Source: Lachnospiraceae bacterium (GTDB lineage Bacteria > Bacillota > Clostridia > Lachnospirales > Lachnospiraceae). From it: a stretch of DNA of 53,196 bases. The stretch covers positions 1 to 53,196 of the forward strand of contig SVEA01000126.1 in NCBI GenBank assembly GCA_015057615.1, read 5' to 3'. Shown here piece by piece: positions 4,027-38,230 of the stretch (position 1 is its first letter; each line of letters opens with the position of its first letter). Position numbers and translations under genes: made by a program. The notes under the pieces are model-generated. The model saw only the letters and a program-made list of their open reading frames with translations, had not been told where the DNA came from and searched no databases.

Positions 4027-4131
4027 GGCAAAAAACCTCCATGCGAGCATAGTTCGCATTGGGATGGCGCACTCGCGCGCGTAAGGTATTTATCTGCCTG
4101 CGGCAGAACGCGCTCGGCGCGAGAGTTTGCC
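4027..4131. repeat. Hairpin array B1 (multi-branched inverted repeats)
   Basis: An outer stem GGCAAA/TTTGCC (4027-4032 with 4126-4131) encloses a hairpin ATGCGA/TCGCAT (4041-4059) and a second branch closed by CTCGCGC/GCGCGAG, which contains CTGCC/GGCAG. The left ~55 bases are clearly homologous, in reverse orientation, to part of the array at 7795-7845. The region lies between the convergent ends of thiT and the 4228-5517 gene. Confidence 0.65.
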
Positions 4132-4227
4132 AAGGCTTACTTTTTGTTTCCAACTACTAATTTGAAATTATTTAATTCCTTCGGTGCCCTTGATACGTTA
4201 AGAATTGTCTTGTTCTTTTCCTGCTTT

Positions 4228-5517
4228 TTATTGTGCCATTCTGGTTACTGCCACGTAGATACCGGATATCTTATACCAGGTAGGGAAATCTACAATTCCG
4301 CTCTGTGGTATATTAAATGTCTGCTGGAATAAACGGACAGAATTTGCTGTCTGCTCATTGTACTGCCCGTTCACTGCAACCTTCGGAACAGCAGAATAGG
4401 TATCCGCAATCCGGTTGAGCTGTTCCTGTATCATTCGGACATCCGCACCGGAGGAACCGATGTTAAGATTTTGACCCGGCCAGGAGGCGGGAACTCCGGA
4501 GACCTGCGGCGCCGTATTAATAAACATATCATTTCCATAAAAGTGCCGGATGATATCAATGGCAGAGTACCCTTGATCTCCCAGGTCTTTGGAACCCCAC
4601 TGGGTCATCCAATTTGGACATTGGGATTTGCGCCCATCGCAGTACTGCGTTAGAATGGGCTGTTTCACATTGGGTCTTGACAAATAATTAACGAATAACT
4701 GGTCAACCGCAAGGCTGATATTATCGTAAATATTTCTTCCCGGTATCCATTTATGATCAAAGGCAGTCGAAGAAGTAACGGTAAAATTGTACCCTTGATT
4801 TCGATACCATTCGGTAAATACACGGTTTAGGGCAAAGGATAGGATAGCAAGAATATTAGCGGTTATCGCTGCGTCCGGCCAGGTTGCATAAATCTCGCTG
4901 GAGGCAACATTTTTAATATAATCCTGGAACCTTACATAATGATTGGTAGCAGTGGAATCCGTCGGAGGCCCGTCATGGACGACGACAAATTCCGGTATTA
5001 TTACATTTTGTAATACGATTTCGCCGGTTTCCGCGATATCCTTAATTTCTGCTTCTGCTATCTTAGGAGGATAGTCTCCGAATAGGGTATGAGGAGGGAT
5101 GACATAGAGTCCACTCGTATCCTTGGCTTCCATCCCCGATAAAACGGCTTCCTGAATTGCCGTAACATCAGGAAATATTTCAGCGTTTTGGAAGGTTGCC
5201 GGCGCATAATTTGGTGCAGTAACCTGAATCGTATATTCGGAGTAAGGCTGTTCCTCCGAGGGAGTTAAGCTGTAATCAATGGAAGGCGCTTCTAATTCAA
5301 TTTCTTCTGTCTTGCCGGAGGCATCCGTCGTTAATTGCTCTATAGCAGAATTGGGCATACCGGAATAAGAAATCTTAACCTGGGCATTTTCCACCGGAGC
5401 GAAACCGGTATCTCTGCAGGTAACCTGCAGCCTGCCAAAATTTTGCGTTCCCATTTCCGCCGGGTAAATCCGGTAGGGATCGACCTCATTTCGATCTGTG
5501 TTTGGAAATAAATACAT
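4228..5517 (-). CDS. SpoIID-like protein with C-terminal peptidoglycan-binding domain (paralogue 1)
   Basis: The protein has 429 residues and no signal peptide. Residues about 15-130 look like a beta-sandwich of the carboxypeptidase-regulatory/CNA-B type (VENAQVKI, ASGKTEEIEL, YTIQVTAPNY). Residues about 175-345 resemble the SpoIID/LytB fold: VRFQDYIKNVASSEIYATWP aligns with the SpoIID block around its catalytic Glu, and GWMTQWGSKD-type sequence with DIIRHFYG aligns with the SpoIID end motif. Residues about 355-425 are a PG_binding_1 domain (GADVRMIQEQLN, VNGQYNEQTANSVRLFQQ). The likely role is binding or processing of spore or cell-wall peptidoglycan. The SpoIID assignment is inference from motifs. 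A close paralogue lies 57 bases upstream in the same direction, so the two probably form one transcript. Confidence 0.7.
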   Translation of the reverse strand: MYLFPNTDRNEVDPYRIYPAEMGTQNFGRLQVTCRDTGFAPVENAQVKISYSGMPNSAIEQLTTDASGKTEEIELEAPSIDYSLTPSEEQPYSEYTIQVTAPNYAPATFQNAEIFPDVTAIQEAVLSGMEAKDTSGLYVIPPHTLFGDYPPKIAEAEIKDIAETGEIVLQNVIIPEFVVVHDGPPTDSTATNHYVRFQDYIKNVASSEIYATWPDAAITANILAILSFALNRVFTEWYRNQGYNFTVTSSTAFDHKWIPGRNIYDNISLAVDQLFVNYLSRPNVKQPILTQYCDGRKSQCPNWMTQWGSKDLGDQGYSAIDIIRHFYGNDMFINTAPQVSGVPASWPGQNLNIGSSGADVRMIQEQLNRIADTYSAVPKVAVNGQYNEQTANSVRLFQQTFNIPQSGIVDFPTWYKISGIYVAVTRMAQ

Positions 5518-5573
5518 AAGATTACCTCAAATTATCATTTACTATTAAAATATGAATTAGAAATTGCCTTGTG

Positions 5574-6869
5574 CTATAATTCTGCCATACGTGTGACGGC
5601 AACATAAATAAATGATATTTTATACCAGGTAGGAAAATCAACAATACCATTTGCGGGCAAATCAAAAATTGATTGGAAGGTGCGAACGGCTTCCTCTGTA
5701 CTCGGACCGAAGACGCCGTCTACAGAAACGATTGGTATTGCAGGATAGGCTTTCGCAATGGCATTTAACTGTTCTTGAATGGTACGGACCGGTACTCCGC
5801 TGGATTCGGTGGTGAGGTTAAAGCCCGGCCAGGAAGAAGGAACGCCGGAGACTTCTGCTGCGGTGTTAATATAGATAGAATTTCCGTAAAAATTGCGCAG
5901 GATATCAATTGCACTATATCCCTGATCGCCCAAATTCTTGGAGCCCCATTGAGTCATCCAGCCTGGGCATTGCACCCGGTTGCCGTCACAGTATTGCGTC
6001 AGAATAGGCTGCTTTACATTCGGGCGGGACAAATAGTTGTTAAAGATAGAGTCCACAATAAAACTAATGTTATCAAAGATGTTTCTGCCATTGACCCATT
6101 TATGGTCATATGCAGTAGAGGAAGTAATCGTAAAATTATAACCCTGGCTGCGGTACCATTCGGTAAAAACACGATTCAGAGTAAACGAAAGGATCGCCAG
6201 TACATTGGCATAGATGGTGGATTCCGGCCAGGTCGAATAAATTTCACAGGAGGCAACATTTTTAATATAATCCCGGTATCTTACATAATAGTTCGCAGCA
6301 GAAGAATCGCTCGGCGGACCATCATGCACAATAACAAATTCAGGGACGACAACCTGCTGTAGGACAATTTCCCCGGTTTCTGCCATGGGCTTTATTTCAT
6401 CTTCGGGTATTTTAGGAGGGAAATCTCCAAATAGAGTATGGGGAGGTATCACATATAGTATGCCTGCCTCCGGTTCCGGCTCTGGAATTAAGGTTGCATT
6501 CTGCAAAGCAGTAACATTCGGAAATAATTCTGCACCATTCACCGTTACCGAACGATAATTTGGTGCGGTAATATCAATATTGTATATCGCATAGGGCTGT
6601 ACGGTCGAAGGTTCCATGCTGTACTCTTCCGAAGGAGCCGGAAGGGATATGGTATCCGTAAAACCGGATTCATTCGTAATTAATTGGTCAATAATCGTAT
6701 TCGGATTATCCGGAGCCGTAATCTTAACCGTTGCTTGTGTGATAGGTTCAAGTCTTGGATTTGTAGCACGAATCCGAAGATCACCAAAGGATTGTGTACC
6801 CATTTCCGTCGGATAAACTCGATAAGGATTCATGGATGTGTTGATGGGTTTCATGCGATTTGATTCCAT
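5574..6869 (-). CDS. SpoIID-like protein with C-terminal peptidoglycan-binding domain (paralogue 2)
   Basis: The 431-residue protein has the same layout as its neighbour at 4228-5517: N-terminal beta-sandwich (ITQATVKITA, YNIDITAPNY), a conserved linker IPPHTLFGDFPPKIPEDEIK, a SpoIID-like middle with the Glu in NVASCEIYSTWPE, and C-terminal PG_binding_1 (GVPVRTIQEQLN, VDGVFGPSTEEAVRTFQ). Similarity is high along the whole length, so this is a tandem duplication. The start is uncertain: the AGAAAGG ribosome binding site touches the ATG at 6869, and an ATG at 6854 (MKPINTS) is the alternative. Without a signal peptide, it may act inside the mother cell or in the spore coat rather than being secreted. 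That is inference. Confidence 0.7.
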   Translation of the reverse strand: MESNRMKPINTSMNPYRVYPTEMGTQSFGDLRIRATNPRLEPITQATVKITAPDNPNTIIDQLITNESGFTDTISLPAPSEEYSMEPSTVQPYAIYNIDITAPNYRSVTVNGAELFPNVTALQNATLIPEPEPEAGILYVIPPHTLFGDFPPKIPEDEIKPMAETGEIVLQQVVVPEFVIVHDGPPSDSSAANYYVRYRDYIKNVASCEIYSTWPESTIYANVLAILSFTLNRVFTEWYRSQGYNFTITSSTAYDHKWVNGRNIFDNISFIVDSIFNNYLSRPNVKQPILTQYCDGNRVQCPGWMTQWGSKNLGDQGYSAIDILRNFYGNSIYINTAAEVSGVPSSWPGFNLTTESSGVPVRTIQEQLNAIAKAYPAIPIVSVDGVFGPSTEEAVRTFQSIFDLPANGIVDFPTWYKISFIYVAVTRMAEL

Positions 6870-7012
6870 CCTTTCTTGTTTCTACTACTATATTGGTATG
6901 TAATGTAGAATATAAGTTGCCTATATTATTAAATTATGTTTCATATGAAAATCTGTGATTTGAGTCTGGGAAACGGTAAGTCTTTTTCGATACCGTATTC
7001 CAGAAAAAATGA

Positions 7013-7057
7013 CAAAAAAATAGGATTTAAGGGTTTGTCGCGGAGTCCTTAAATCCT
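7013..7057 (-). terminator. Intrinsic terminator of the VOC gene
   Basis: AGGATTTAAGG at 7022 pairs with CCTTAAATCCT at 7047-7057, and on the minus strand the stem is followed by ATTTTTTT. It lies downstream of the VOC gene and ahead of the tandem SpoIID-like genes. Confidence 0.8.
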
Positions 7058-7103
7058 AGAAGTCTAATTTGGAGGTTGTGGATATATACGAATACAGTAA
7101 GAG

Positions 7104-7140
7104 AGTCTGTGTTCTTCCTGTAATGCACGGTTTGAAAGAT
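7104..7140 (-). repeat. Solo arm of the groEL long hairpin
   Basis: AGAGTCTGTGTTCTTCCTGT followed by AATGCACGGTTTGAAAGAT is, in reverse orientation, a diverged copy of the right arm of the hairpin at 1488-1638 (which reads TTTCAAACAGTGTATTACAGG and on). No partner arm is seen nearby. Confidence 0.5.
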
Positions 7141-7153
7141 GACAACCCCTTGA

Positions 7154-7552
7154 TCAGCAGTTCATTCTTTTAAATTGTGGCTTGCTTTTTGAAGGTATAA
7201 TTTCTAACCAGTAACCATCCGGATCATTGATAAAGTAGATACCCATACCGGGATTTTCGTAACAGATGCAGTCCATGTCTTTATGCTTCTTATATGCGGC
7301 ATCATAGTCCTCGGTCTCAAAGGCTAAGTGGAACTCATTATCCCCGAGATTGTACGGACGGTTCCAATTTTTCAGCCAGGTAAGCTCAAGAAGATGATCC
7401 GAAATACCATCACCAAGGAATACAATAATAAAATCACCTGTTTCCGGCTCAATTCGTCTGGTTTCTTTCAGCCCGAGTGCTTTCTCATAAAACCTTAAAG
7501 ATTTCTGCAAATCAAGGACATTAATGTTATTATGAACAAACTTAAAATTCAT
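7154..7552 (-). CDS. VOC-family (glyoxalase I-like) protein
   Basis: The 132-residue protein starts at the ATG at 7552, chosen because AGGAGT lies 7 bases upstream; an ATG 13 codons earlier has no ribosome binding site. It has the vicinal-oxygen-chelate layout: KFVHNNINVLDLQKSLRFYE at the N-terminus with the first metal-ligand His, NEFHLAFETED in the middle, and YFINDPDGYWLEIIP with the last Glu. This pattern is closest to lactoylglutathione lyase (GloA), which converts the methylglyoxal-thiol adduct, but many VOC proteins share it. It is a single-gene unit with its own terminator at 7013-7057. Confidence 0.88.
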   Translation of the reverse strand: MNFKFVHNNINVLDLQKSLRFYEKALGLKETRRIEPETGDFIIVFLGDGISDHLLELTWLKNWNRPYNLGDNEFHLAFETEDYDAAYKKHKDMDCICYENPGMGIYFINDPDGYWLEIIPSKSKPQFKRMNC

Positions 7553-7703
7553 TCGTAGGACTCCTTTCTTTTTATAATAATGGTTAAGCAATGATATACT
7601 CTCTAGTTGAATTAGCTGTATATACTACAGATGCAAACACAATAGCTACAATACCGAAGTTTCGCAATAACTTATATAATGTAAGGTAAAGATTTACAAG
7701 CTA

Positions 7704-7867
7704 GAGTTTCGCTTACGAAACTCGAACGCCGAGCACGGCCAGCATCGCTGGCAAAATACTACGAATACATGTTTCAAGTATTCGTTACGTGCTGAGTGCG
7801 TCATCCAAATGCGAACTATATTCGCATGGAGCATTTTTCGTTGAATAGGATGAACTTTCCTATTCAA
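7704..7867. repeat. Hairpin array B2 (five inverted repeats)
   Basis: Successive perfect stems are GAGTTTC/GAAACTC (7704-7723), GCCAGC/GCTGGC (7738-7752), GAATAC/GTATTC (7763-7783), ATGCGA/TCGCAT (7809-7827) and TTGAATAGGA/TCCTATTCAA (7841-7867). An outer stem AGCACG/CGTGCT (7732 and 7788) encloses the second and third. The 7795-7845 part is homologous to array B1. The array fills the space between the 7932-8828 gene's terminator and the VOC gene. Confidence 0.65.
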
Positions 7868-7871
7868 TAAA

Positions 7872-7925
7872 AATAAGGCTGCCGTTCCACTAAGCAGTGA
7901 TCGGTTAGCGGTAAGCAGCCCTATT
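7872..7925 (-). terminator. Terminator of the Big_2 protein gene
   Basis: AGGGCTGC and GGCAGCCT (read on the minus strand) form the base, CCGCTAA/TTAGTGG an inner stem, and TATTTTTATTG follows. Confidence 0.7.
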
Positions 7926-7931
7926 TACTAT

Positions 7932-8828
7932 TTAAATCTTGTTTCCAGAAATTACCTCTATTTTCTGGTTGTCAGCTCCCTTTGTAGGTTTCGGAGTTTC
8001 CTCTTTATCTAAATCAAAATTCTCGGTTATAAACTTATCAAGAGCATCAACCAAACTGCCGGCTTTTACGGAGGAAGCGATGGCTTCCTTCTCAGAAGTT
8101 CCGTTAAAGAATTCTTCTAACGCACTCGAGAATCCCGTTAACATATCAAATTCAGGATGCGCACTAAGATAACTCTCTAAAGCGGAAGCATCCTCCGGGT
8201 TTGTTACAAGCAGAGTGCAAACGGCAAATTTGCTATTACCATTGGTGTCTTTGGCATCGATTTCAGCAAATAAATAAGTAAGTCCTAAATTATTCGCAGT
8301 AACCCGTCCACCAATACTGACAGAAGCAATGGAGGAGTTGTAACTGGAAAATCTGGCAAGCTCAGCGGTATTCGTTGGCTTTAAGATAACCTTTAATAAA
8401 TCACTGCGGTCTAAACCTAAAACAATACGTGACTTTGTAAGGCGGACACTGAATGCAGGCGGCCCTACCGTAACATCGCAGGTTAAGCTGACCGGAGTGT
8501 CACCGTCTTTTATTGTCACTATTATAGCAGTGGTTCCTACTTTTTTTGCAGTAATCTTACCATCCTCATTAACAGAAGCAATTTCCGAATCATTGGATTT
8601 AAAGCTGACCTTAGCATTTTCGCCTAAATTGTATACCCTTAACGTAAATGACTTATCGGTAACTAAGGTTATACTTTTTAAGTTTAGTTTGTAATCGTTC
8701 AGTTTCTCCTTCTCGATACTACCAGCCTTAACCGTATGAGTATTATAAGGCGTTAGCGGTGTAAGCAAGGTGAAAAAAAGAAGTAAGCCAAGGGTAATCA
8801 TAATTTTCTTAATCAATTTCTTTAACAT
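7932..8828 (-). CDS. Secreted protein with two bacterial Ig-like (Big_2) domains
   Basis: The protein has 298 residues. Residues 1-35 are a signal peptide (KKLIKKIMITLGLLLFFTLL, then cleavage near VKAGS). Residues about 45-125 and 130-215 are two Big_2 domains, shown by SFKSNDSEIASVNEDGKITA with KKVGTTAIIVT and SSYNSSIASVSIGGRVTANN. The remaining 80 residues are a helical, charged C-terminus of unknown function. Such proteins are usually displayed on or released from the cell surface, but no sorting motif or choline/SLH anchor is present. The GGAGG ribosome binding site lies 7 bases before the ATG. A perfect 18-bp palindrome overlaps the likely -10 box (see 8869-8890). Confidence 0.85.
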   Translation of the reverse strand: MLKKLIKKIMITLGLLLFFTLLTPLTPYNTHTVKAGSIEKEKLNDYKLNLKSITLVTDKSFTLRVYNLGENAKVSFKSNDSEIASVNEDGKITAKKVGTTAIIVTIKDGDTPVSLTCDVTVGPPAFSVRLTKSRIVLGLDRSDLLKVILKPTNTAELARFSSYNSSIASVSIGGRVTANNLGLTYLFAEIDAKDTNGNSKFAVCTLLVTNPEDASALESYLSAHPEFDMLTGFSSALEEFFNGTSEKEAIASSVKAGSLVDALDKFITENFDLDKEETPKPTKGADNQKIEVISGNKI

Positions 8829-8868
8829 GGCTATCCTCCGAATCTGGAAATTCCTTTTGTCACATCCT

Positions 8869-8890
8869 ATCTATTCTAGAATAGATTATA
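8869..8890 (-). promoter_or_regulatory. Palindromic operator candidate over the -10 box of the Big_2 gene
   Basis: On the minus strand TATAAT (8890-8885) is followed at once by the perfect palindrome ATCTATTCTAGAATAGAT (8886-8869). No good -35 box stands 17 bases upstream. The palindrome would cover the transcription start and is a plausible repressor or activator site. Confidence 0.5.
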
Positions 8891-9593
8891 GCAATACTTT
8901 TTGTCAGAAAAGTGTCATATATATAAAATTAATATGATTAATTAGGAAATGTTTCATAATATATGCGATAGGTATGGACACGTGAGGTATTACACGGTAA
9001 AATAATTACAAATTGGTGTATTTGGCGAGCGGGTATCCTACTCGTATTGCCATTTATCATTACGCGGGCTAATTTATGCAGGCATTACGATAAAAATGGT
9101 ATCAAACGCTCCGTATAAGTTCTATTTTAATTCATTTTACCACTTGTTTTCCATACAGAGTATCATATATAATAAAAGCAGAGTGTTTTTTTTACATTTA
9201 TATTTCCAGCAAGGCCGTGGTAGAAGCTTCTTGAAACCGGCTTCTCACCAATACCGATATGTTTTTTAACGGATGCCATATCATTATATTCTGCTTTACG
9301 ATACTTTTTTATACAAAGTGTCAGGTATAAAAAAGTAGTACATAATCGGTAAAAGGAGAAGAAATTAAAATTTATTAAAAAATTGAAACAAATCAGCCAG
9401 CTGTCTCGTCTAATATTGTGGTTTCTATAGGATATCGTGAAAGCGGAATGAAAAATGCGGGGTTTGCCTGCAATTTCCGATAGAAGTTACAAAATCATGA
9501 GCATACATTTTGCTCATGACATTATAGAATGTATGATACATACATTAACCTGCATATGAAAAAAGGGAAAATCTTTGAAAGGGGAATAGAATA
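8891..9593. other. 700-base intergenic region with inverted repeats, no convincing gene
   Basis: No full gene is visible. A possible promoter (TTGTTT 9144, 18-base spacer, TATAAT 9168-9173) points towards the response regulator. A perfect 13-base inverted repeat TACTTTTTTATAC/GTATAAAAAAGTA spans 9302-9337 and could be an operator or terminator. Behind it AAAAGGAG precedes a 20-codon stub reading KFIKKLKQISQLSRLILWFL without a proper start codon, possibly the remains of a signal peptide. ATGAGCA/TGCTCAT at 9496-9517 is another strong hairpin. The ~400-base leader before 9594 might include a small RNA, but nothing proves it. Confidence 0.4.
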
Positions 9594-10289
9594 ATGCAAC
9601 ATATATTAATCGCAGATGATAATCGTGATATTACGGATATCTTATCTACATACTCCAGGATGGAAGGATTTGAACCGGTCGTAGCGGGGGATGGAGAAGA
9701 AGCGATAAGGCTGTTTAGCCAGTATGAGCCAGATGTTGTATTACTGGATGTTATGATGCCCAAAGAGGATGGGTATGAAGTTTGCCGTAAAATTAGGAGC
9801 AAATCCAATGTACCGGTAATATTGATTACTGCCAGAGGAGAAGACTTTGATAAAATCATGGGTTTAGATATCGGCGCAGATGATTATATTGTAAAGCCGT
9901 TCAGCCCAAGAGAAGTAATGGCAAGAGTGAGGGCAGTATTAAGAAGAATGTCTAAGACTACGAAGGAAGAGACTTCAGACAATGTAATCAAGATGGATAA
10001 TCTGGAAATCAGCTTGGATGAATATACCTTACATATCAGCGGCAAGAAAATTGCACTTACTAAGAAAGAGATTGAAACCATGTGGACACTTGCCGGCAAT
10101 CCGAATAAAGTTTTTACAAGAGATAATCTACTTGACAGCTTATGGGGATTTGATTATTTCGGTGATAGCAGAACTGTTGATTCCCACATTAAGAGACTGC
10201 GCGCAAAATTAGACACGGTAGAGCATCCCTCCTGGTCAATAAAAACAATCTGGGGTGTTGGATATAAATTCGAAATTGATGAAAAATAA
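9594..10289 (+). CDS. OmpR/PhoB-family response regulator
   Basis: The 231-residue protein has a receiver domain (1-120) with the acidic pair D8-D9, phospho-acceptor D52 in VVLLDVMMPKEDG, the conserved Thr in ILITARGE and Lys in YIVKPFSPRE. It is followed by a winged-helix DNA-binding domain (about 132-228: LTKKEIETMWTLAGNPNKVF, DSRTVDSHIKRLRAKL, IKTIWGVGYKFE). It should bind promoter DNA after phosphorylation by a histidine kinase, most likely the one at 10694. The ribosome binding site is AAAGGGG. An intrinsic terminator directly follows, so the kinase is not simply co-transcribed. Confidence 0.95.
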   Translation: MQHILIADDNRDITDILSTYSRMEGFEPVVAGDGEEAIRLFSQYEPDVVLLDVMMPKEDGYEVCRKIRSKSNVPVILITARGEDFDKIMGLDIGADDYIVKPFSPREVMARVRAVLRRMSKTTKEETSDNVIKMDNLEISLDEYTLHISGKKIALTKKEIETMWTLAGNPNKVFTRDNLLDSLWGFDYFGDSRTVDSHIKRLRAKLDTVEHPSWSIKTIWGVGYKFEIDEK

Positions 10290-10303
10290 AAAAGATGAAT
10301 TGG

Positions 10304-10326
10304 AAAGGCCACTCAAGTGGCTTTTT
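10304..10326 (+). terminator. Terminator between response regulator and kinase
   Basis: AAAGGCCACT pairs with AGTGGCTTTTT around a very short loop, ending in a T run. Confidence 0.8.
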
Positions 10327-10353
10327 CTATGAGTTACGGCATAGGAATAACTT

Positions 10354-10677
10354 TGATTTGAGCGTCAAAAGCTGATTTGTAAACTAACTTTGTCGATTTG
10401 CACAATTTATGTAATGACAAGTAGTAATAGGAAACCTATTTTATTTGCAACACATTGTTTTCAAAATGCTGCATAAAGCGCAGCGCAAAGCATTGCAAAA
10501 AACGCAATACTTGGTTGAAGTTCGTAATGGTACGTATGACCACAAAATACGTGGTCTAAGTCCAACGACTTCAAACAGTTTCGTATTGAAATATTGCTTC
10601 CTATTACTTAAGTTTTTCCTTGCATTGTGCAAATTGATGAAGCCGATTTGTTAAGAAAGCTTTTGACCCTCAAATCA
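10354..10677. repeat. Palindromic element A, full copy A1
   Basis: The ends TGATTTGAGCGTCAAAAGC and GCTTTTGACCCTCAAATCA are inverted repeats, and the whole 324 bp is imperfectly palindromic about a centre near GACCACAAAATACGTGGTC (10538-10556). The inner blocks AATTTGCACAATT, AGTAATAGGAAAC, GCATTGCAAAAAACGCAATA and GTTTCGTATTGAAATA recur in copies at 45731, 47061 and, inverted, 51629. Open frames inside it on both strands are by-products of the palindrome. Confidence 0.8.
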
Positions 10678-10693
10678 AGAAAGCGAGGACAAA

Positions 10694-13296: not shown

Positions 13297-13477
13297 ATTA
13301 TATCATGAACCAAAAAACAGTTCATGATCTTTAGCTCCGATCGCATATTACAAGCAAGCTTGTATATGCTCACTACGCTTTTATTATATCATGAGTAACG
13401 AACACTCATGATCTTGGCACTCCACTCGGGAATTACAAGCAAGCTTGCATTTCCTCATTCCGTTTTTATTATATCAT
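13297..13477. repeat. Two tandem ~86-bp units with covarying hairpins
   Basis: Unit 1 begins at 13297 and unit 2 at 13383, each with ATTATATCATGA, and a third start appears at 13468. Each unit has two hairpins. In the first, ATCATGAAC/GTTCATGAT in unit 1 becomes ATCATGAGT/ACTCATGAT in unit 2. In the second, the core TTACAAGCAAGCTTG is kept while the outer pairs change from GCATA/TATGC to GGAA/TTCC. The stems therefore change sequence but keep pairing. Confidence 0.7.
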
Positions 13478-13566: not shown

Positions 13567-13595
13567 TTGTCTTTTAATAAAGGAGAAACTATAAT
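13567..13595 (+). promoter_or_regulatory. Sigma-A promoter of nadE
   Basis: TTGTCT (13567-13572), 17 bases, TATAAT (13590-13595). Transcription should begin at about 13602, inside the hairpin array that forms the nadE leader. Confidence 0.75.
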
Positions 13596-13701
13596 GTAAG
13601 CAAACACGAATTCTGAAGGAATTCGTGCATAAGAAAAGCAAGGCTTTTCTTATGAGCAGCGAAGCTGCGTTTTGCTTAACGAACATTTGTGAAGCAAATG
13701 T
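13596..13701 (+). repeat. Hairpin array B3 (cloverleaf-like) in the nadE leader
   Basis: The outer stem TAAGCAAA/TTTGCTTA (13597 and 13671) encloses three hairpins in a row: CACGAATTC/GAATTCGTG (13605-13627), CATAAGAAAAGC/GCTTTTCTTATG (13628-13654) and GCAGC/GCTGC (13656-13668). A fourth, ACATTTG/CAAATGT (13683-13701), follows. The spacing between neighbouring stems is one base or less. No tRNA features (GTTCRA T-loop, CCA end) are present. Confidence 0.7.
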
Positions 13702-13767
13702 GAGTCTATCAACGGGAGAGATTCATATATACTTTTAGATAGCTTAGAGAATAGGAGATGAAATACA

Positions 13768-15756
13768 TTGAGCGGTTTTATAAATAACGGAATTATAGAA
13801 GTTGCTGCCGTAGCGCCTGCATCCATTCAAATTGGAAATCCAAGCTATAATGTAGATAGAATGTTAGAGCTTATAGGTGATATTAATAGAAAGAATAGTA
13901 TCGGTGAGAGACAGACAAGAATCGTAGTATTTCCGGAGCTTTGTATAACTGGATATACTTGCGGAGATTTATTTAATCATTCCATATTGATTAATAAAGC
14001 AATGGATGAATTGATGCGGTTTGTTGAAAAATCCAATCATGAATTTAATCCAATTATGTTCGTGGGAATTCCTTTACGAAAAGATAATCAATTATTTAAC
14101 TGTGCAGCTGTTATTCATAGGGGAAAAATTCTTGGCTTTGTGCCAAAAACCTATATTCCGAACTACAGTATCTTCTACGAATTAAGAAATTTTAAGCCTT
14201 CCTTTGATCGAATCAATGATGAAATTACGATAAAAGGTGCCCGGTATCCTTTTTTGCCCAATATCCTGATTGAAGATGAAGCATCCGGAGCGGTTATCGG
14301 TACGGATATCTGTGAGGATTTGTGGGCTCCCATTCCGCCGTCCTCGTATCATTGTTTACATGGTGCAAATATTATAGTAAATCTTTCGGCAAGTAATGAA
14401 ACCATTGGAAAATCGGATTACCGAAGAAATATGATTACGATGCACTCCGCAAAGTGTATGTGTGGTTATATCTATGCATCTGCGTCATCGGATGAATCTA
14501 CAACAGACAACGCATTTTCGGGGCATTGTATTATAGTAGAAAACGGCTATATAATCTCCGAATCGAAATCCTTTCATAACACAGAGATCACTTATGGTGA
14601 GATCGATATTGAAAAATGCTTAAATGAACGGACAAGGAACAGTTCCTATATGATTATCCATGAAAAACAGGAATATAAATACATTTATACAAAAACATTT
14701 GATCGATTGACCGATAAATTCAAATCAAACAAGGAATTACCCCTCTTACCCTTTGTTCCGCAAGATATTGACCGTCGTTCCGAGGAGATTATGAATATTC
14801 AGGTCACAGGACTAGCTCAAAGACTGAAAAAGATACATTGTGATAGGGCTGTCATAGGTATATCGGGCGGACTCGATTCGACCCTGGCGCTAATGGTAAC
14901 GGTAGAAGCATTTAAACGGAATAAATATGATCGAAAGGGAATCATAGGAATTACTATGCCGGGCTTTGGAACAACGGGCAGAACCTTAGAAAATTCAAAG
15001 AAGCTGATGAAGGCTTTAAATATCACCTTATTCGAAATACCGATTCGGGATGCCTGCATTCAGCATTATCAGGATATTCAACACGATATTAATGTGCATG
15101 ATGTAACCTATGAGAATGTGCAAGCAAGAGAAAGAACCCAAATTCTCATGGACATGGCTAATAAATATAATGGAATTGTTGTCGGAACAGGAGATTTATC
15201 TGAGCTGGCTCTCGGATGGTGTACTTATAATGGAGACCAAATGAGCATGTATGGGGTAAATGCATCCATTCCTAAGACACTCGTAAGAGGTATCGTAAAA
15301 TCCTATGCAAAGAAGCAGGAAGATGCGATTAAAGAGACGCTTCTTGATATCTGTGATACTCCGATAAGCCCGGAATTATTACCTCCAAATCCGGATGGTA
15401 CCATTGCTCAGAAAACGGAGGAAGTGATCGGCTCCTATGCAGTACATGATTTTGTTTTATATTACATGCTGCGGTATGGATTTGGACCGAAAAAGATTTA
15501 TGAATTGTATGTTAATTCGTTGAAGCTGCAAACAATTAGAAAGGGCGGAAATCCCAAAGAAATTGATAAGCAGAGAATATATAAAGATATGAAAACCTTC
15601 TATAGACGATTCTTTACACAGCAGTTTAAGCGCTCCTGTATGCCGGACGGTATTAAAGTCGGTTCCGTATCGCTATCTCCGAGGGGGGATTGGCGGATGC
15701 CAAGTGATGCTTCGGCAGAAATCTGGCTGAAAGAGCTTGCTATGGTTGAAGAATAA
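13768..15756 (+). CDS. nadE: Glutamine-dependent NAD(+) synthetase
   Basis: The 662-residue enzyme has two domains. The N-terminal nitrilase-type glutaminase (1-300) has catalytic E57 (VVFPELCITGY), K127 (FVPKTYIPNY) and C182 (GTDICEDLWAP). The C-terminal synthetase (330-660) has the ATP-pyrophosphatase loop SGGLDSTLAL near residue 366 and the conserved VVGTGDLSELALGWCTYNGD. It amidates nicotinic acid adenine dinucleotide to NAD with ammonia tunnelled from glutamine. The start is TTG at 13768, ten bases behind AGGAG. The gene stands alone between its own promoter with a structured ~165-base leader and a terminator. Confidence 0.97.
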   Translation: MSGFINNGIIEVAAVAPASIQIGNPSYNVDRMLELIGDINRKNSIGERQTRIVVFPELCITGYTCGDLFNHSILINKAMDELMRFVEKSNHEFNPIMFVGIPLRKDNQLFNCAAVIHRGKILGFVPKTYIPNYSIFYELRNFKPSFDRINDEITIKGARYPFLPNILIEDEASGAVIGTDICEDLWAPIPPSSYHCLHGANIIVNLSASNETIGKSDYRRNMITMHSAKCMCGYIYASASSDESTTDNAFSGHCIIVENGYIISESKSFHNTEITYGEIDIEKCLNERTRNSSYMIIHEKQEYKYIYTKTFDRLTDKFKSNKELPLLPFVPQDIDRRSEEIMNIQVTGLAQRLKKIHCDRAVIGISGGLDSTLALMVTVEAFKRNKYDRKGIIGITMPGFGTTGRTLENSKKLMKALNITLFEIPIRDACIQHYQDIQHDINVHDVTYENVQARERTQILMDMANKYNGIVVGTGDLSELALGWCTYNGDQMSMYGVNASIPKTLVRGIVKSYAKKQEDAIKETLLDICDTPISPELLPPNPDGTIAQKTEEVIGSYAVHDFVLYYMLRYGFGPKKIYELYVNSLKLQTIRKGGNPKEIDKQRIYKDMKTFYRRFFTQQFKRSCMPDGIKVGSVSLSPRGDWRMPSDASAEIWLKELAMVEE

Positions 15757-26394: not shown

Positions 26395-26404
26395 ATAAGT
26401 CAAA

Positions 26405-26519
26405 GCGGATATTCGCAATCCGCTTACGCTACTTGCTCATAACCTCATTGCCACTGCATGGCATTTTAGCAGGAGCTTGAACTCCTGCCAAAACAGGCAA
26501 GTCCTTACCTGATGAGGTT
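26405..26519 (+). repeat. Hairpin array B4: cloverleaf-like leader of the yvl-like operon
   Basis: A first hairpin GCGGAT/ATCCGC (26405-26423) is followed by an outer stem AACCTCAT/ATGAGGTT (26441 and 26512). This encloses three hairpins: TGCCA/TGGCA (26449-26463), GCAGGAG/CTCCTGC (26469-26488) and CAGGCAAG/CTTACCTG (26494-26511). It lies wholly in the mRNA leader, ending ~27 bases before the first start codon. Confidence 0.7.
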
Positions 26520-26546
26520 AAATAATACATCAGGATGGTGAAAAGA

Positions 26547-27702: not shown

Positions 27703-27711
27703 AGAATGTCT

Positions 27712-27820
27712 AATGGAGGTAAGGTTGAAAGAAATACACTTTCAACCACAAATTTTGTGCCTGCGAAATCCTCGGCACAAATTCGGATGCACAGAAATAC
27801 ATGTGCAGGAATGGAGGTAA
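27712..27820 (+). repeat. Hairpin array B5 flanked by an 11-bp direct repeat containing the ribosome binding site
   Basis: AATGGAGGTAA occurs exactly at 27712-27722 and again at 27810-27820. Between them are GGTTGAAA/TTTCAACC (27723-27747), TTTGTGCC/GGCACAAA (27754-27781) and TGCACA/TGTGCA (27788-27807); the first and last share the loop sequence GAAATACA. The right-hand copy of the repeat is the working Shine-Dalgarno site of the next gene. The arrangement looks like an insertion with target duplication. Confidence 0.8.
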
Positions 27821-27822
27821 AA

Positions 27823-28170
27823 ATGACAAAACTGTTCATGAAATATATATCTATCATATTAACGATATATCTGCTGTCATTTGTATCACACACGATTCAA
27901 ATCGACAGTATCCCGGCACTTCTTATCATGGGATTGGTGCTGTTGGTAGTAAATCTTATTTTAAAACCAATTCTGCTCTTGATTACCTTACCGTTCAGCC
28001 TGCTGACCTTAGGATTATTCAGCTTTATTGTAAATGCCTGGACGATCATGATTGCAGATCATTTCGTAGCAAACATAAGCATGGGCGGCTTTCTTAATTC
28101 GCTTCTTGCCGCCTTCCTCATTGTTGTCTTTAATCATCTGTTCAAGGATATAAATAAAGTTTCCGATTAA
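27823..28170 (+). CDS. PF04020 (YvlD-like) four-helix membrane protein
   Basis: The 115-residue protein is almost entirely membrane helices: ISIILTIYLLSFVSHTIQI, IPALLIMGLVLLVVNLILKP, ILLLITLPFSLLTLGLFSFI and FLNSLLAAFLIVVFNHLF. The KPILLLITLPFSLLTLGLF signature fits the 'holin superfamily IV' PF04020 proteins such as B. subtilis YvlD. These often sit in envelope-stress operons. A start at 27706 would run through the hairpin array and lacks a good site, while 27823 follows GGAGGTAAAA. It ends the operon. Confidence 0.88.
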   Translation: MTKLFMKYISIILTIYLLSFVSHTIQIDSIPALLIMGLVLLVVNLILKPILLLITLPFSLLTLGLFSFIVNAWTIMIADHFVANISMGGFLNSLLAAFLIVVFNHLFKDINKVSD

Positions 28171-32508: not shown

Positions 32509-32630
32509 AGTAATCTCCATTCTGCCAAACACCGCACATTAGGAATTAGTATAATGTTTTGCATAACGAATTACAAACCATTCACTTCTAACTGCCCTTC
32601 TGCCGCACGCTCTGGTACCAATTATCAGAA

Positions 32631-33848
32631 TTAATCGATCTTTGTTAAAAGTGCTATTGTATCAAACCGTAATAGCAAGAGAAGTGCAACCCATATCCCG
32701 ATGCATGCGCATATAAAAAACAACAGGAAAATCAACATCATATTTGCAAAACCGATTCCTGCCACACCCATCAGCATTGGCAGAACCAATATGCAGCCTG
32801 ACAGGTATAAAAACATAGTTTCTAAAAAATACGATGCTGCTCCGGATAATTTCGGGTGCCCCAGGGAGCTTGCAATCGCCATTTCCTGCCGGTAGCTTCG
32901 CAAAATCAGAAAGGACACTAGTTGGATCAACAAAATAATTATTAAGAAAAATGGGATCTGAAACCATCGGAACGTTTTTATATTTTCCTGAAGCTTGGAG
33001 GCTGTTTCAATAAATATCCTATCCTGGACTATCAGCTCATCGCCGCTGCGTCTGTCATCCGCTTTCGGAACTGCTTCACCAAAATGTTTTTCCTTCATAT
33101 ATGCTTTAAAGTCATTCAGATATAATGGGTTTTTAATGGTGCAGCGAGCCGAGTCATAATAAAAGGTATTTCCGCTTTCCTCCACGAATAAGCGGAGCCA
33201 ATTGATGGGAACAATCATATTCTGTGTATCTGACGAATCGCTTCCTTGCTGGAATGTGCCGATGACCGTTAAGGACGGTTCTCCCACTTTAATAAAATTA
33301 AAGGTATAGCCATCCTTATTAAACTTATAGATATACATTGGAAATGATAAGGTATCTCCTATGGAAATGTCATGCCGTGCAGCATAGGATTCGCTGACCA
33401 CACACACAGGCTCTTTCCCTTCTAAATAAGTTTCATCCCAGCCATCCGCAAAGATGATTTCTTCGCCGCTGACCGATAGCAATGCCTGAAGAGAATTTGC
33501 TCCAATGATTGTTGTGTCGCAAGCCTTTACAAACTCTACCCGGTTGATCAGTTCCAGATTTCCACCCGCCTGCGCCGTATAAAGCGGCTCCGTAATATCA
33601 GCAGAAAGCAATGCATCCAAGCGGTTTGTCATAATTTCCAATCCAATCAGCCTGGAACCATTTTGATTAGTTATCTGCGCAGTAACCGTAATCGTATCCG
33701 CAAGACTTTTCAGTGCTACTTCATTTTTCCGGATGTTCCCTATGTATATCCCTACAAACGATACTAGCAGTGCAGCAATCCCTACAGACAGCAGGCTGCG
33801 GCCTTTATTACGCCATATATGGCGCCGAATTTCAGATAGGAAAAACAA
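32631..33848 (-). CDS. FtsX/MacB-family ABC transporter permease
   Basis: The 405-residue protein has one N-terminal transmembrane helix (about 17-37, GRSLLSVGIAALLVSFVGIY), a large extracytoplasmic MacB-PCD-like domain (about 40-285) and three C-terminal helices (about 293-316, 335-365, 370-395), the FtsX layout. It starts at TTG 33848 behind GAGAGG. It forms the membrane part of an exporter or mechanotransmission complex with the ATPase encoded 122 bases downstream. The substrate is unknown; related systems export peptides or lipoproteins or give antimicrobial-peptide resistance. Confidence 0.9.
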   Translation of the reverse strand: MFFLSEIRRHIWRNKGRSLLSVGIAALLVSFVGIYIGNIRKNEVALKSLADTITVTAQITNQNGSRLIGLEIMTNRLDALLSADITEPLYTAQAGGNLELINRVEFVKACDTTIIGANSLQALLSVSGEEIIFADGWDETYLEGKEPVCVVSESYAARHDISIGDTLSFPMYIYKFNKDGYTFNFIKVGEPSLTVIGTFQQGSDSSDTQNMIVPINWLRLFVEESGNTFYYDSARCTIKNPLYLNDFKAYMKEKHFGEAVPKADDRRSGDELIVQDRIFIETASKLQENIKTFRWFQIPFFLIIILLIQLVSFLILRSYRQEMAIASSLGHPKLSGAASYFLETMFLYLSGCILVLPMLMGVAGIGFANMMLIFLLFFICACIGIWVALLLLLRFDTIALLTKID

Positions 33849-33981
33849 TAAGCATCATCCTCTCATTATTAGGTGTATAAATGACGGTAATATCCACGGT
33901 ATATAGGTTCAATAAAAGCTGATCTCATCCGATAATGATTCTATTTTAAAACTTTGAAATCTCAGTTGTTTATGGCATGAA

Positions 33982-34059
33982 TGTCATAAGCTATCTTAAG
34001 ATTTTGCCATGAATAGGAACTTATATATATTCATGAAATGTTTTTAATAGCTTATGGCA
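33982..34059. repeat. Nested inverted repeat D1
   Basis: TGTCATAAGCTAT (33982) pairs with ATAGCTTATGGCA (34047), and inside it CATGAATA (34008) with TATTCATG (34028). No ORF inside. Confidence 0.6.
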
Positions 34060-34077
34060 CTCATATTTGTTTATTAT

Positions 34078-34175
34078 ATAATTTGGGTATCATACGTCAG
34101 ATTTACATGAAGAGGAATATGTTTAAATATATATTCATTGCTTCATTTACAAGTGACTTATGATACCCAAATTAT
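34078..34175. repeat. Inverted-repeat element D2 with perfect 17-bp ends
   Basis: ATAATTTGGGTATCATA (34078-34094) and TATGATACCCAAATTAT (34159-34175) are exact inverted repeats, and inside ATTTACATGAAG pairs imperfectly with CTTCATTTACA. The 98-bp unit has no coding capacity and resembles a miniature transposable element or large hairpin. Confidence 0.65.
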
Positions 34176-34305
34176 TATGTAATATTTAGTAAATATTATT
34201 TTAACATTCTTGTCTGTATTTTCAATCAACGACAAATCCTTACTGTCTGATATCTGATAACTTCATGTATTTTAAATTTCTCGTTTTATTTGGAGTAGTC
34301 TTTAG

Positions 34306-34719
34306 TTATCCTTCCCTACGTTTCTTTGTAACAATGATCTGTATAACAATTCCAATTACAACAGATACAAGAATTACTCCCATCCAAATTTCAAATCCGG
34401 GGTTATGCTGAAGTCTATATACTTCTTCTGCCTTCATGCCTTCCATAATCTTACCTTCATTAAGCCCCTTAATGAACCTTCCAAGATAATTTCCGGCAAA
34501 AATACCGACAACGATTCCTGCGGTCATAAATACTGAAACAAATTGCTGATTTAAGAAAATCAGTAATAGGGTAATCAATCCCAGAACCAAATAGAACTTC
34601 CAGTTATGTGCCGCCCACTGAAACAAATATTCTGTGTTCAAAACGGTAAATGCTAACCCTGCAACGACCGCTAGAATAACAGCCTCGATCACCGCATATA
34701 CATATTTTTTTCTATTCAT
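34306..34719 (-). CDS. Membrane protein of unknown function
   Basis: The 137-residue protein has four probable transmembrane helices: AVIEAVILAVVAGLAFTVLN, FYLVLGLITLLLIFLNQQFV, VFMTAGIVVGIFAGNYLGRF and WMGVILVSVVIGIVIQIIVT, with a charged loop (KGLNEGKIMEGMKAEEVYRL) before the last. I recognise no family. It has GGAAGGA before the ATG and stands alone between an inverted-repeat element and element C1. Confidence 0.75.
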   Translation of the reverse strand: MNRKKYVYAVIEAVILAVVAGLAFTVLNTEYLFQWAAHNWKFYLVLGLITLLLIFLNQQFVSVFMTAGIVVGIFAGNYLGRFIKGLNEGKIMEGMKAEEVYRLQHNPGFEIWMGVILVSVVIGIVIQIIVTKKRREG

Positions 34720-34918
34720 CGTTTTATCCTTCCATTCATTTCTCTAAAGGTACTAACAAGGTATGAAAATACTAATTTAAAATAATGATGCCTGGGATGA
34801 AGTTAAGTAATTCACATTATAATAAATGAATGTGAATATACTTACTGTTATATTATAATCTAAACTTGTATATATTTCCAGCTTTGTTTCCCAATACATA
34901 GTGGGTTACTTGCTTCTT

Positions 34919-35120
34919 GTTACTGTTCACACATGGACAAAGTCTATAATATGATTTCGACAAATGATATTCGATAAGGAGTATTTGCATTCGTTGGTAC
35001 TTTGGCTCCGTATTTTGGAGCCTTATGTACCGCTACGTAATGCAACTAAGCGAAAGCGTCTCCGATTCGGATACAATTGACGAAATCATAGCATGGTATA
35101 CTTGGGGTGTGAACAGTAAC
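34919..35120. repeat. Palindromic element C, copy C1
   Basis: Ends GTTACTGTTCACAC and GTGTGAACAGTAAC, 202 bp in total, nearly identical to the copy at 43693-43896. The internal sequence is palindromic too (TTGGCTCC..GGAGCCTTA, GATTTCGACAAAT..ATTGACGAAATCAT). No flanking direct repeat was found for this copy. Confidence 0.8.
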
Positions 35121-35160
35121 ACTTTTTAATTTATCCCTTGTTATAACCATGCTCCTTTCA

Positions 35161-35221
35161 AAGTCTGGAGACTTTGTGCGTAGCACAAATCTCCGGTTGA
35201 AAGAATGAAATTCTTTCAACC
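35161..35221. repeat. Hairpin array B6
   Basis: AAGTC/GACTT (35161-35174), TTTGTGC/GCACAAA (35173-35189) and GGTTGAAAGAA/TTCTTTCAACC (35195-35221); an alternative outer stem CTGGAGA/TCTCCGG encloses the second hairpin. It directly follows the stop codon of the lipoprotein gene on the minus strand and may act as its terminator. Confidence 0.6.
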
Positions 35222-35242
35222 TTCTACTGCAGAAATTAGATA

Positions 35243-38146
35243 TTACTTTGTTACAGTAACTTTTATTGCCTTATGAAGGCCTGAAGTTCTTGTATAAGCA
35301 ACTATATAAGCTGTGCCCTCCTTTTTCGCTGTTACTGCACCTTTACTGGATACCTTTACGATATCTTCATCAGATGACATCCAATATACATTTTCATTGG
35401 ATCCCTTTGTTAATTTCGCGGTTATAGCAGTAGTTTCATCTTTAACCAAGGAAAGCTTACTTTTATTTAATGTGATTTTTGTAGCTTTTACAATATCTTT
35501 CGCATTTACAACTGTTGCTTTACTGCCGATTACTTTTTTATAAGCTGACGCTGCAGATTTATTGACTTTAACCGTGGTCTCCTCTCCAAGTGCTGATTTA
35601 ATATTAGATATTGGCTTTTTATTCAGAAATGTTACCAGCTTAAAATCAGATAGGGAACCTCTTTCCAGCTTCTTAATCGTAGAAGGTAAGATAATACTTC
35701 CTGATTTCATTCCAAAATTAAATGCATCCCGTGAGATCGTTGTAACTCCTTCCGGTACGTACATAAATTCTACATAACTGTAAGTTCCATAATAAAACAG
35801 CCATCCGGGAAGTTCTTTACAATTTTTAGAAAAGAAAATCAATTGTGCACCTGGTGAAAAGATGCCCCCATCCATCTTGGTAACCGTATCAGGAATCACT
35901 ATAATTTTAGCTTTACTATTTATTAACCCGGACGAATCAATCGCTGTTAATTTATAAGTATATCCGTTATTGGTAACTGTTTCAGGTAAAGATAAATAAG
36001 TATCTTTATGTACTCCCTCTCCCTGAAGTCCTATCAAAGTAACCTCACCGGTTTTATCCTTTCCTGATTTTGTAACCTGATAAATAATTTTATTTTTATC
36101 AAAAATACCATATTCTATATCTTCTGTTACCTTAGACACAATAGTAGGATTTAAGGTTACTGATTTCTCTGTAAGGTCCCCTCCATTTTCATACCCTAGA
36201 CTGGAAGAAATGATACTCTTGTATGCACTCTCCAATCCCTTGGGAACCAGTATAAGAATATCTAGTGGTCCTATACCGTTCCTCACTCCCAAATACACTC
36301 TTTTAGGTAATTTTCTTCCTAAAAATTCGATGGTATCTACGTTAGGAAAATCATAGCTGCTATGGACTAATTCTCCTGTAAAAGAATCTAAAACAATCAT
36401 TTTTCTTACGCTACCGCTTTTTTCTTGATCGATAAGATTATACTCTGCTATTTTGTATTCAGAATCATGGATATAAACTTCTCCGGGTATTTCAATTGTA
36501 TCCTTATTCTCCGGTACATCAATTTTTACCAGCCTCACTTCTTTCTTGGCTTCATCAATAATTTCATAGTGATAAATTCCATTTTGATACTCTATACTAT
36601 CGTCAACGGACTTTACAGTAATCTCTCCTCCTAATAAATGTTCCAGCTTTGAAATCTCACTTCGTCCATACTCATATGAACCCAGCAGGTTTCCCTCACA
36701 ATCATATTTGGAGAATTTGCAATAATAGACGTACTCTCCCTCCACATCAATGCTGCTGGGAATATAATATCCTCCCTCGAATTTGATGGTAGATTTATCC
36801 TTAAGATCAATTAAGTAAGTCTCAGCTGGGTCCTCATCACAGTCAAATACAACCTTAAGATAGCCTCCGTCTATATCACCTTTCATGAAGTAAGCAGAGG
36901 GGTTTATTCCCTTTATATCAAATGCGTTTAGATAAAGGCCATGATTCTTTCCGTCAGTTCCAACAGAATATATATTCATTGTCTTACCATTATTAAAGTC
37001 AACGCCATAATATACCTGGGTCGCATTCGCTGCAAGAAGGGTGAAGGTATTACTTTCAAACCAACTACAACCTTGAGCTTCTAATTCCTTTCTGCTTAAG
37101 CTATGTATTGTTGTCACCTTATGATTATTTATCTTATTTAACTTCATTACTTCCGGTTCCTTAGAAATTGCAAGAAAAAACAATTCGTTTTTTTCATTCG
37201 ACTTCAAATCAAAAATATCCAGCGACTCATGCATTTTTGTTTTGTTCTTTCCATCAAAATTAATGAAATACAATCGATCTATAGGGTCATTCCCGTCTAA
37301 GGTATTATTGACGCTTTTACTGATGTAATAGATTCCATCCGGTACCATAACTGCCTCAAGAGGATCAATAGATTTTAGCTTAACCAGAGATGTCTTTTCA
37401 CCGGTCCTGCCAATTCGTATAATCTCTCGAGCCTTTTTGTCCAATGCAAAGATATCATCATTCTGAAATCCCAGTATGGTTGCCGTGCCTTTAAAAAGCC
37501 TGGTCTTATTCTTTCCATCCACTCCAATTCGGTAGATATCACCATTTACCAGATAGTAAATATCACTTCCCTTTAGGTAAAAGTCACTATTATGAAAATT
37601 GTAATCTTCTACTGTAGTAAGCTCTGTTACCTTCGAGGTTTTTAAATTCTTTGAAACAATCGCGGTTTTATTTTGCTTTCCGGACTTATAAAAGAGATAA
37701 TTTCCCTGAGTAAAAGCTGTCGTACTATGAACCACCTCTTCCGAAGGAATAAAATCTGAAATCGGTGTCGGTTCAGTAGTCGAAGCAGGCTTCTTGCTTG
37801 CCAGTTTTACTGTAGGTTCAGACTTCCCAATATATAACAGCTCTGCGGTGGGATCAAATTCCCCCATCTGTACCAGCTGCGCAGTGGGCTCCGGCGCTTT
37901 GTCTGTTGTTGGCTCCGCGGCGGGGTCCAGCTCCTCGGTTCCTGTTGGCTCTGCGGTCAACGAATCCGATGGCTGATTTATCGCATCCTCCGTGTTGTTA
38001 TTTTCACCGATGCTCCCTTTGGTTGATTTGCTACACGCTGCAGATGCCATAAGCACCATAAGCAGTAAGCACACCAGCCCTGTTTTCTTTACCATCCTAT
38101 AGTTCTGCGGTTTTCGCAAACCTTTCAAGTCGTAATTCATCCTCAT
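35243..38146 (-). CDS. Large lipoprotein with DUF5050-like, LRR-like and Big_2 regions
   Basis: The 967-residue protein has a type II signal peptide with lipobox (VCLLLMVLMASAACSK), so it should be anchored in the outer face of the membrane. A Pro/Thr/Glu-rich linker (about 45-130) follows. Next come repeated beta units of the DUF5050 type (LYFINFDGKNKTKM, IYSVGTDGKNHGLYLNAF, DIYRIGVDGKNKTRLF), then leucine-rich, BspA-like units (KAKIIVIPDTVTKMDGGIF, YVPEGVTTISRDAFNFG), and a C-terminal Big_2 domain (ITLNKSKLSLVKDETTAITA, VSSKGAVTAKKEGTAYIVAY). The start at 38146 follows GGAG with 6-base spacing. The role is probably surface binding or adhesion. It is flanked by hairpin arrays on both sides. 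Confidence 0.88.
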   Translation of the reverse strand: MRMNYDLKGLRKPQNYRMVKKTGLVCLLLMVLMASAACSKSTKGSIGENNNTEDAINQPSDSLTAEPTGTEELDPAAEPTTDKAPEPTAQLVQMGEFDPTAELLYIGKSEPTVKLASKKPASTTEPTPISDFIPSEEVVHSTTAFTQGNYLFYKSGKQNKTAIVSKNLKTSKVTELTTVEDYNFHNSDFYLKGSDIYYLVNGDIYRIGVDGKNKTRLFKGTATILGFQNDDIFALDKKAREIIRIGRTGEKTSLVKLKSIDPLEAVMVPDGIYYISKSVNNTLDGNDPIDRLYFINFDGKNKTKMHESLDIFDLKSNEKNELFFLAISKEPEVMKLNKINNHKVTTIHSLSRKELEAQGCSWFESNTFTLLAANATQVYYGVDFNNGKTMNIYSVGTDGKNHGLYLNAFDIKGINPSAYFMKGDIDGGYLKVVFDCDEDPAETYLIDLKDKSTIKFEGGYYIPSSIDVEGEYVYYCKFSKYDCEGNLLGSYEYGRSEISKLEHLLGGEITVKSVDDSIEYQNGIYHYEIIDEAKKEVRLVKIDVPENKDTIEIPGEVYIHDSEYKIAEYNLIDQEKSGSVRKMIVLDSFTGELVHSSYDFPNVDTIEFLGRKLPKRVYLGVRNGIGPLDILILVPKGLESAYKSIISSSLGYENGGDLTEKSVTLNPTIVSKVTEDIEYGIFDKNKIIYQVTKSGKDKTGEVTLIGLQGEGVHKDTYLSLPETVTNNGYTYKLTAIDSSGLINSKAKIIVIPDTVTKMDGGIFSPGAQLIFFSKNCKELPGWLFYYGTYSYVEFMYVPEGVTTISRDAFNFGMKSGSIILPSTIKKLERGSLSDFKLVTFLNKKPISNIKSALGEETTVKVNKSAASAYKKVIGSKATVVNAKDIVKATKITLNKSKLSLVKDETTAITAKLTKGSNENVYWMSSDEDIVKVSSKGAVTAKKEGTAYIVAYTRTSGLHKAIKVTVTK

Positions 38147-38164
38147 GTTAATCTCCATACCCTT

Positions 38165-38230
38165 TCTTCGCAACCTGCAAACTTTGGGCTGCAAACACAA
38201 AGTTGCGTGTGAAAGATTTATCTTTCACAC
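38165..38230. repeat. Hairpin array B7 in the lipoprotein leader
   Basis: GTGTGAAAGA/TCTTTCACAC (38207-38230) stands beside a stem formed by CGCAAC/GTTGCG (38169 and 38202). On the minus strand TAAGGAGGTA lies just upstream of the array and TATGGAGATTA, the working ribosome binding site, just downstream. They may be a decayed direct repeat like that around array B5. Confidence 0.55.

Follow-up and report, generated by a model that had tools for sequence, protein, structure and literature searches.

Short, hairpin-rich elements of at least five families occupy two kinds of landing site, namely the gap between a Shine-Dalgarno (SD) sequence and its ATG and the tail of intrinsic terminators, in a Lachnospiraceae genome (G000) of 4,073,244 bases in 215 contigs, of which the window analysed here, i.e., the whole stretch of 53,196 nt, constitutes contig C109. 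These elements move, as copies lie in unrelated places, 2b copies are near-identical within one genome, empty sites exist and stacks have formed before one ATG. They are probably non-autonomous elements moved in trans by a putative enzyme targeting SD-AA-NN-ATG and tolerated through the restored ribosome-binding site. On balance, we lean towards a broader scheme for the Lachnospiraceae, where elements targeting SD-AA-NN-ATG would split and restore the ribosome-binding site and stack anew, and a second kind would sit behind terminators, the insertions being harmless by design at both ends of the transcription unit.

Hairpin arrays of the window and their families

The sequence-only reading had pointed out rows of hairpins at seven sites of the window, and arrays are indeed present at all seven, each being more stable than the mean of 200 dinucleotide shuffles of its own sequence, as judged by z-score and by the number of shuffles folding at least as well. 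The z-score was -6.0 at 13594-13715, -5.5 at 26400-26530 and -4.8 at 7690-7835, 35150-35240 and 38160-38250 (minus strand for these three), with none of the 200 shuffles at least as stable in each case, then -3.0 at 27710-27830 (3/200 shuffles) and -1.9 at 4020-4155 (7/200), so that, judged only by its folding, the array at 4027 is weak. When non-overlapping 120-nt windows from the whole stretch were ranked by stability, the top 30 included five of the arrays, those at 27723 and 38165 being absent, and 21 of the 30 corresponded neither to arrays nor to other labelled elements. What singles out the arrays is copy number, not stability alone.

Separate searches of the 4.07-Mb genome placed six of the seven sites in five multi-copy families. 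The earlier proposal had been made dependent on further copies in the genome, which were found for these six sites and not for the array at 13596 (one match, itself, out of 17 candidates). The homology of the arrays at 4027 and 7795 in opposite orientations was confirmed by sequence comparison; the statement that the others share architecture only turned out to be wrong, those at 26405, 27723, 35161 and 38165 each belonging to a separate multi-copy family. The separate searches thus speak against a single family for all seven arrays, i.e., the one dispersed family first suggested; there are no fewer than five, and their landing sites are of two kinds. The single-copy array (13597-13704, plus strand) stands in the leader of the gene for NAD synthase (13768-15756); upstream of it, at 13300-13475, stand two similar tandem hairpin units (ATATCATGA...TCATGATC...GCAAGCTTG).

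As for the families, family 4 (26400-26521, plus strand, upstream of a DUF2089 gene starting at about 26547) gave 11 matches in the genome including the window copy, eight of which cover most of the length. Family 2 (27721-27816, plus strand) is inserted between the host SD and the ATG at 27823 of a gene for a Phage_holin_4_2 family protein and gave 18 matches, query and partials included, 11 of them with E <= 4e-28. Counted likewise with query and partials, family 2b (35141-35223, minus strand) gave 32 matches and family 2c (38149-38230, minus strand, between the SD AAGGAGG and the ATG at 38146-38144 of the gene for a 967-aa Big_2 protein) at least 42, with 40 of 64 candidates scored. The 2c core pattern, allowing up to two mismatches, occurs at 65 places in the genome and its reversed pattern at none. 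Family 1 (4003-4150, plus strand, and 7701-7868, minus strand) occupies at least 41 places, as found with the 4027 query and 40 of 128 candidates scored.

Register at start codons and behind terminators

Families 2b and 2c are 80-90 bp long and lie in sense orientation between the SD and the start codon of a gene, and most of them leave 2 nt between their end and the ATG; the same gap holds family 2, at a slightly variable distance from the ATG. All three are built of a first hairpin (often TGAAAG...CTTTCA) and a second one (TTTGTGC...GCACAAA or similar), followed by an SD and the start codon, 2b terminating in AAAGGAGCATGGTTATAA, 2c in AAAGG(G)CATGGTTATTA and family 2 in GCAGGAATGGAG. As the element carries this terminal SD, the split ribosome-binding site is replaced. 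Neither 2b nor 2c exhibits terminal inverted repeats by eye, the left end being the hairpin and the right end, CATGGTTATWA, not its reverse complement. Two family 2 copies (L039 and L042) have the first hairpin in two or three tandem repeats.

The register is sharpest for 2b, six of whose 21 copies match the window copy without mismatch along 83 nt. The ATG begins exactly 2 nt past the element end in 19/21 copies, the remaining two being one copy with an ATG but an altered end and the window copy, the only one of the 21 with neither an adjacent ATG nor an adjacent SD match. A frame of at least 99 aa begins at 17/21 copies, and frames of 48, 5 and 2 aa begin at L070, L065 and L063, respectively. 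On the upstream side, a 5-nt SD match is found within 14 nt in 14/21 copies, as against 9.1% of 5000 random positions, and a match of at least 4 nt in 19/21, as against 31% of random positions. The dinucleotide AA stands at the left junction in 20/21 copies and at the right junction in 18/21, whereas, among the native genes with SD and ATG from the same loci, AA occupies -4,-3 in only 13/94 cases.

Such a register could also arise if insertion were random and only those insertions splitting a ribosome-binding site without harm survived, since elements carrying an SD would find a harmless place in or near a gene and the survivors would look targeted. We consider this explanation quite improbable, because the identical, hence recent, 2b copies are already in register, all but one, because the AA preference far exceeds that of the native genes, and because neutral intergenic sites should hold many copies when only the window copy among the 21 lies in one. 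Moreover, look-alike sites that are no gene start, i.e., L065, where the 3' end of another gene contains the start of a 5-codon frame, and L063, with a frame of 2 codons, hold 2b in the same register, so that it is the sequence, not the gene, that appears to be read.

The 2c junction is less sharp than that of 2b. An ORF (at least 40 aa or open at the locus end) begins 24-46 nt past the core in 80/96 copies, the control being 18%. The left end is recognisable in 56/96 copies, with the dinucleotide TA in 35, CA in 10 and another in 11, the flank presenting a G at -7 in 46/56 and an A at -1 in 50/56. Where the right end was recognised (50/96), the ATG follows at 2 nt in 36 copies, at 1 nt in 4 and at 3 nt in 2, and 8 have none within 12 nt.

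Family 1 lands at the opposite end of genes, mostly directly behind the T-run of intrinsic terminators and in one orientation. Over about 147 nt, it comprises a left palindrome, at least three internal hairpins, a right hairpin and TTTGCTAC; one extra internal hairpin occurs in copies L019, L023, L028 and L029 as well as in the window variant at 7704. In the window, the plus-strand copy sits directly behind the terminator, with its T-run, of the thiamine-transporter gene 3218-3898 (Thia_YuaJ), and the minus-strand copy behind that of the minus-strand gene 7932-8828 (Big_2 domains); elsewhere, copy L019 sits after a T-box leader. A T-run of at least 4 flanks 25/31 copies on the left, as against 7.3% of 6000 random positions, and a T-run together with a hairpin of -8 kcal/mol or lower is found at 18/31 copies, as against 1.6% of random positions. 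The ends are palindromic but, by eye, form no matching inverted-repeat pair.

Mobility, mobilising machinery and RNA structure

Four relatives were searched for thirty joined empty sites, 19 of 2b and 11 of family 1. Five of the 19 2b sites were matched across the junction in the close relative G024, cleanly for L052, L061 and L053 and only within a few bases for L062 and L058. Judging by the clean empty sites, about 81 bp were gained at a dinucleotide AA that is present once in the empties (GTGGTG-AA-TTATG for L052, GGT-AA-GTATG for L061, and L053) and on both sides of the element in the filled sites; instead of being duplicated, this AA could belong to the element itself. For family 1, the site corresponding to L025 in G024 has the terminator with its T-run but not the element, and leaves the precise boundary ambiguous.

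Leader-bearing genes include, by eye, such core genes as those for prolyl-tRNA synthetase, triosephosphate isomerase, GatB, FlhB and the pyruvate-formate-lyase activating enzyme, and these leaders are present in one strain and absent from relatives, except that some relatives have 2c-like sequence at tpiA and flhB. For pflA, all seven relatives fetched are without 2c. For tpiA, which bears a 5'-truncated 2b copy in the own genome, inspection by eye of 18 relatives revealed 2c-like sequence before the gene in G024 and G020 and its absence from the other 16. For flhB, 2c-like sequence is common to the own genome, G024 and G017, shortened or degenerate in the last two, so that this insertion is the older one.

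Of 61 genomes searched for 2b, G000 alone gave strong matches, those in G024 and G013 being weak and partial. Family 2c occurs in at least 96 stretches of GTDB-220 contigs, before unrelated genes; among the matches listed, nearly all titles name Lachnospiraceae or the genera Herbinix, Anaerocolumna, Roseburia, Lachnoclostridium and Blautia, and a few only Clostridiales, Bacillota, Clostridium sp. KNHs205 or an uncultured bacterium. When 145 further genomes from the order were searched, 14 of them from the same family, in a draw holding no other species of the own genus, none had the 2c pattern, which counts against a general spread.

Elements also stack on one another; with its own SD, an element would restore the site where new ones could insert before the same ATG. 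At gatB (L088), several SD-ending units, terminating in CAGAAATGAG(G/A)AT, stand in a row before the start codon, apparently as a stack. A further SD-ending element, family 3 (GAGTTTGTGTCTGCG...GCGCAGAAATGAGG), which is not in the window, lies upstream of several 2b and 2c copies, e.g., at L004, L020, L022, L056, L078 and L088, with 17 entries in 110 loci of the own genome, some being repeats or weak. Transposon-like elements with terminal inverted repeats, overlooked by the sequence-only reading, are also found in the window: one at 34918-35122 adjoins the 2b copy and has a branched core between the ends TGTTACTGTTCACAC and GTGTGAACAGTAACA, with a second copy, having the same ends, at about 43694-43897; two others, at 51628-51929 and 10353-10678, are related, with arms of 54 and 21 nt. 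The latter two share a branched core around GTTGGTACTT...GTACC, whose stems, by eye, have changed on either side, and the core of the former pair is of this same kind.

The first proposal is supported as far as it takes the arrays for dispersed, structured, non-autonomous mobile DNA, often situated in mRNA leaders beside ribosome-binding sites. Mechanistically, the elements would encode nothing and a strand-specific trans-acting enzyme would move their DNA, recognising SD-AA-NN-ATG or, for family 1, the terminator tail; the two hairpins might be what this enzyme binds, perhaps as single-stranded DNA. The elements would be tolerated because insertion restores an SD or sits past the end of the transcript.

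The mobilising enzyme was not found in the own genome by Y1_Tnp and RVT_1 searches. Y1_Tnp gave one partial match, at a contig end of the 215-contig assembly, whose flank bears no likeness to the elements by eye. As for reverse transcriptase, group II intron sequence and broken frames occur on contig C162 (L331); group II sequence was also seen by C164, and a 520-aa protein on C46 (L336) has a weak reverse transcriptase match. With only pieces or broken frames and no visible link to the elements, both Y1 transposase and reverse transcriptase were set aside as mobiliser. An autonomous copy was sought in the collected loci as a left hairpin without the usual second part, yielding eight entries with no gene between the ends by eye, i.e., the window copy twice and otherwise variants or reverse complements. 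Carriage of 2c by phages or plasmids was likewise rejected, with one match in 50,697 phage records (a faecal record of 5.3 kb, unannotated), two partial matches in 72,556 plasmid records and one IMG/VR contig (L317, 8086 bp). The latter encodes three tandem large serine recombinases and carries 2c at the start of the second, which, as a single case, we take to be one more insertion, not the source.

The main rival to movement as DNA, on account of 5'-short copies beside an SD, is RNA templating, where element RNA would be copied at the target by a reverse transcriptase, the 3' end being fixed and the 5' end sometimes truncated. About 10 of the 96 2c copies have no first hairpin (L153, L175, L156, L101 and L111 among them) but start directly beside SD-like sequence, and so does one 2b copy (L071); the group II and reverse transcriptase remnants on C162, by C164 and on C46 agree with this possibility, as does the position of family 1, which is the landing place of group IIC introns. 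Nonetheless, the left end is intact in 20/21 2b copies, the truncated ones could be explained by internal or left deletions after insertion, which do occur (flhB in G024; L072 and L080), and no reverse transcriptase was detected in G030 or in G024 (61% complete), although G024 carries 2c-like sequence. We therefore regard RNA templating as unlikely.

The alternative of a stable or regulatory RNA class, also raised by the sequence-only reading, did not gain support. No Rfam family scored above threshold on any array or element, low-scoring chance matches aside; TPP, 6S and a T-box were only nearby, and the best match over the 2b array, TD-2, reached 22.6 bits against a threshold of 48.7. Regarding group II introns, no intron family reached the gathering threshold in the window, and none matched over the elements in six loci at E <= 5. 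The 96 proteins downstream of 2b and 2c fall into 86 groups and, being unrelated, make no regulon visible.

A leader switch controlling translation of the genes behind it could nevertheless draw on several structural features, namely the conserved sequence of hairpin 2 in 2c, the SD within the leader, two-sided stem changes in 2c and a mismatch retained in hairpin 2. Of 16 pairs predicted from the 2c alignment, 7 are kept although both partners change, all of them in the first hairpin, with a small covariation term (-0.57 kcal/mol). In the second hairpin, a 1x1 position is mismatched in 44/45 copies, one being paired against 6.8 expected if independent, a figure uncorrected for relatedness. 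The predicted probability that the SD of the element is unpaired averages 0.64 for 2b (n=18, min 0.34) and 0.73 for 2c (n=46, min 0.12), that for the native SD region in joined empty sites being 0.50; on average, the element SD is at least not predicted to be buried. For 2c, an H-type pseudoknot (CCTGC with GCAGG) was rejected, the pairing being predicted as one of two alternative hairpins, with loops that look too short for both at once. Given the diversity of the downstream proteins, the Rfam result, the confinement of near-identical copies to one species and the position of family 1 behind genes, a cis-regulatory class appears very improbable, and individual copies may have been recruited for regulation.

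Relation to known mobile elements

If the targeting of SD-AA-NN-ATG holds true, a mobile element copes with the density of a bacterial genome by inserting at the start signal of genes and supplying anew what it has broken, and a site-specific insertion machine is worth looking for. The insertion of such elements alters 5' leaders wholesale and can mislead start-codon annotation. We know of no bacterial element with a translation-start target, and in the open-access literature no described bacterial element targeting the SD-to-ATG start signal was found.

Other non-autonomous, hairpin-rich and dispersed sequences, probably moved in trans, are the MITEs and REP/BIME. To our knowledge, REP sites have no requirement for SD and ATG, and, of a REP transposase, one piece at a contig end was all that was found in the own genome. 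Unlike MITEs, 2b and 2c show no terminal inverted repeat by eye. The arrays resemble both in being non-autonomous, hairpin-rich, dispersed and probably moved in trans, with MITEs as defined in PMC3049150. Group IIC introns (PMC7923331) are also among the closest known systems, but a group II intron is a ribozyme that has a domain V and encodes a reverse transcriptase, whereas the arrays are too short and have no Rfam intron match.

Compared by description, there is a close likeness to BOX, RUP and SPRITE of Streptococcus pneumoniae, which, in the available part of their account, are short (mostly <200 bp), present in many copies, strongly folded and non-autonomous, as are the present elements; BOX is modular with repeated internal hairpins, and SPRITE shows an enrichment close to gene 3' ends (PMC3049150). 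SPRITE is itself terminator-like, whereas family 1 sits behind the terminator of its host (PMC3049150). BOX and RUP are described there as having terminal inverted repeats and as duplicating their target, while the SD-gap elements have neither feature, except for the AA, and no fixed distance from start codons is described there for BOX, RUP or SPRITE, unlike that kept by the SD-gap elements (PMC3049150).
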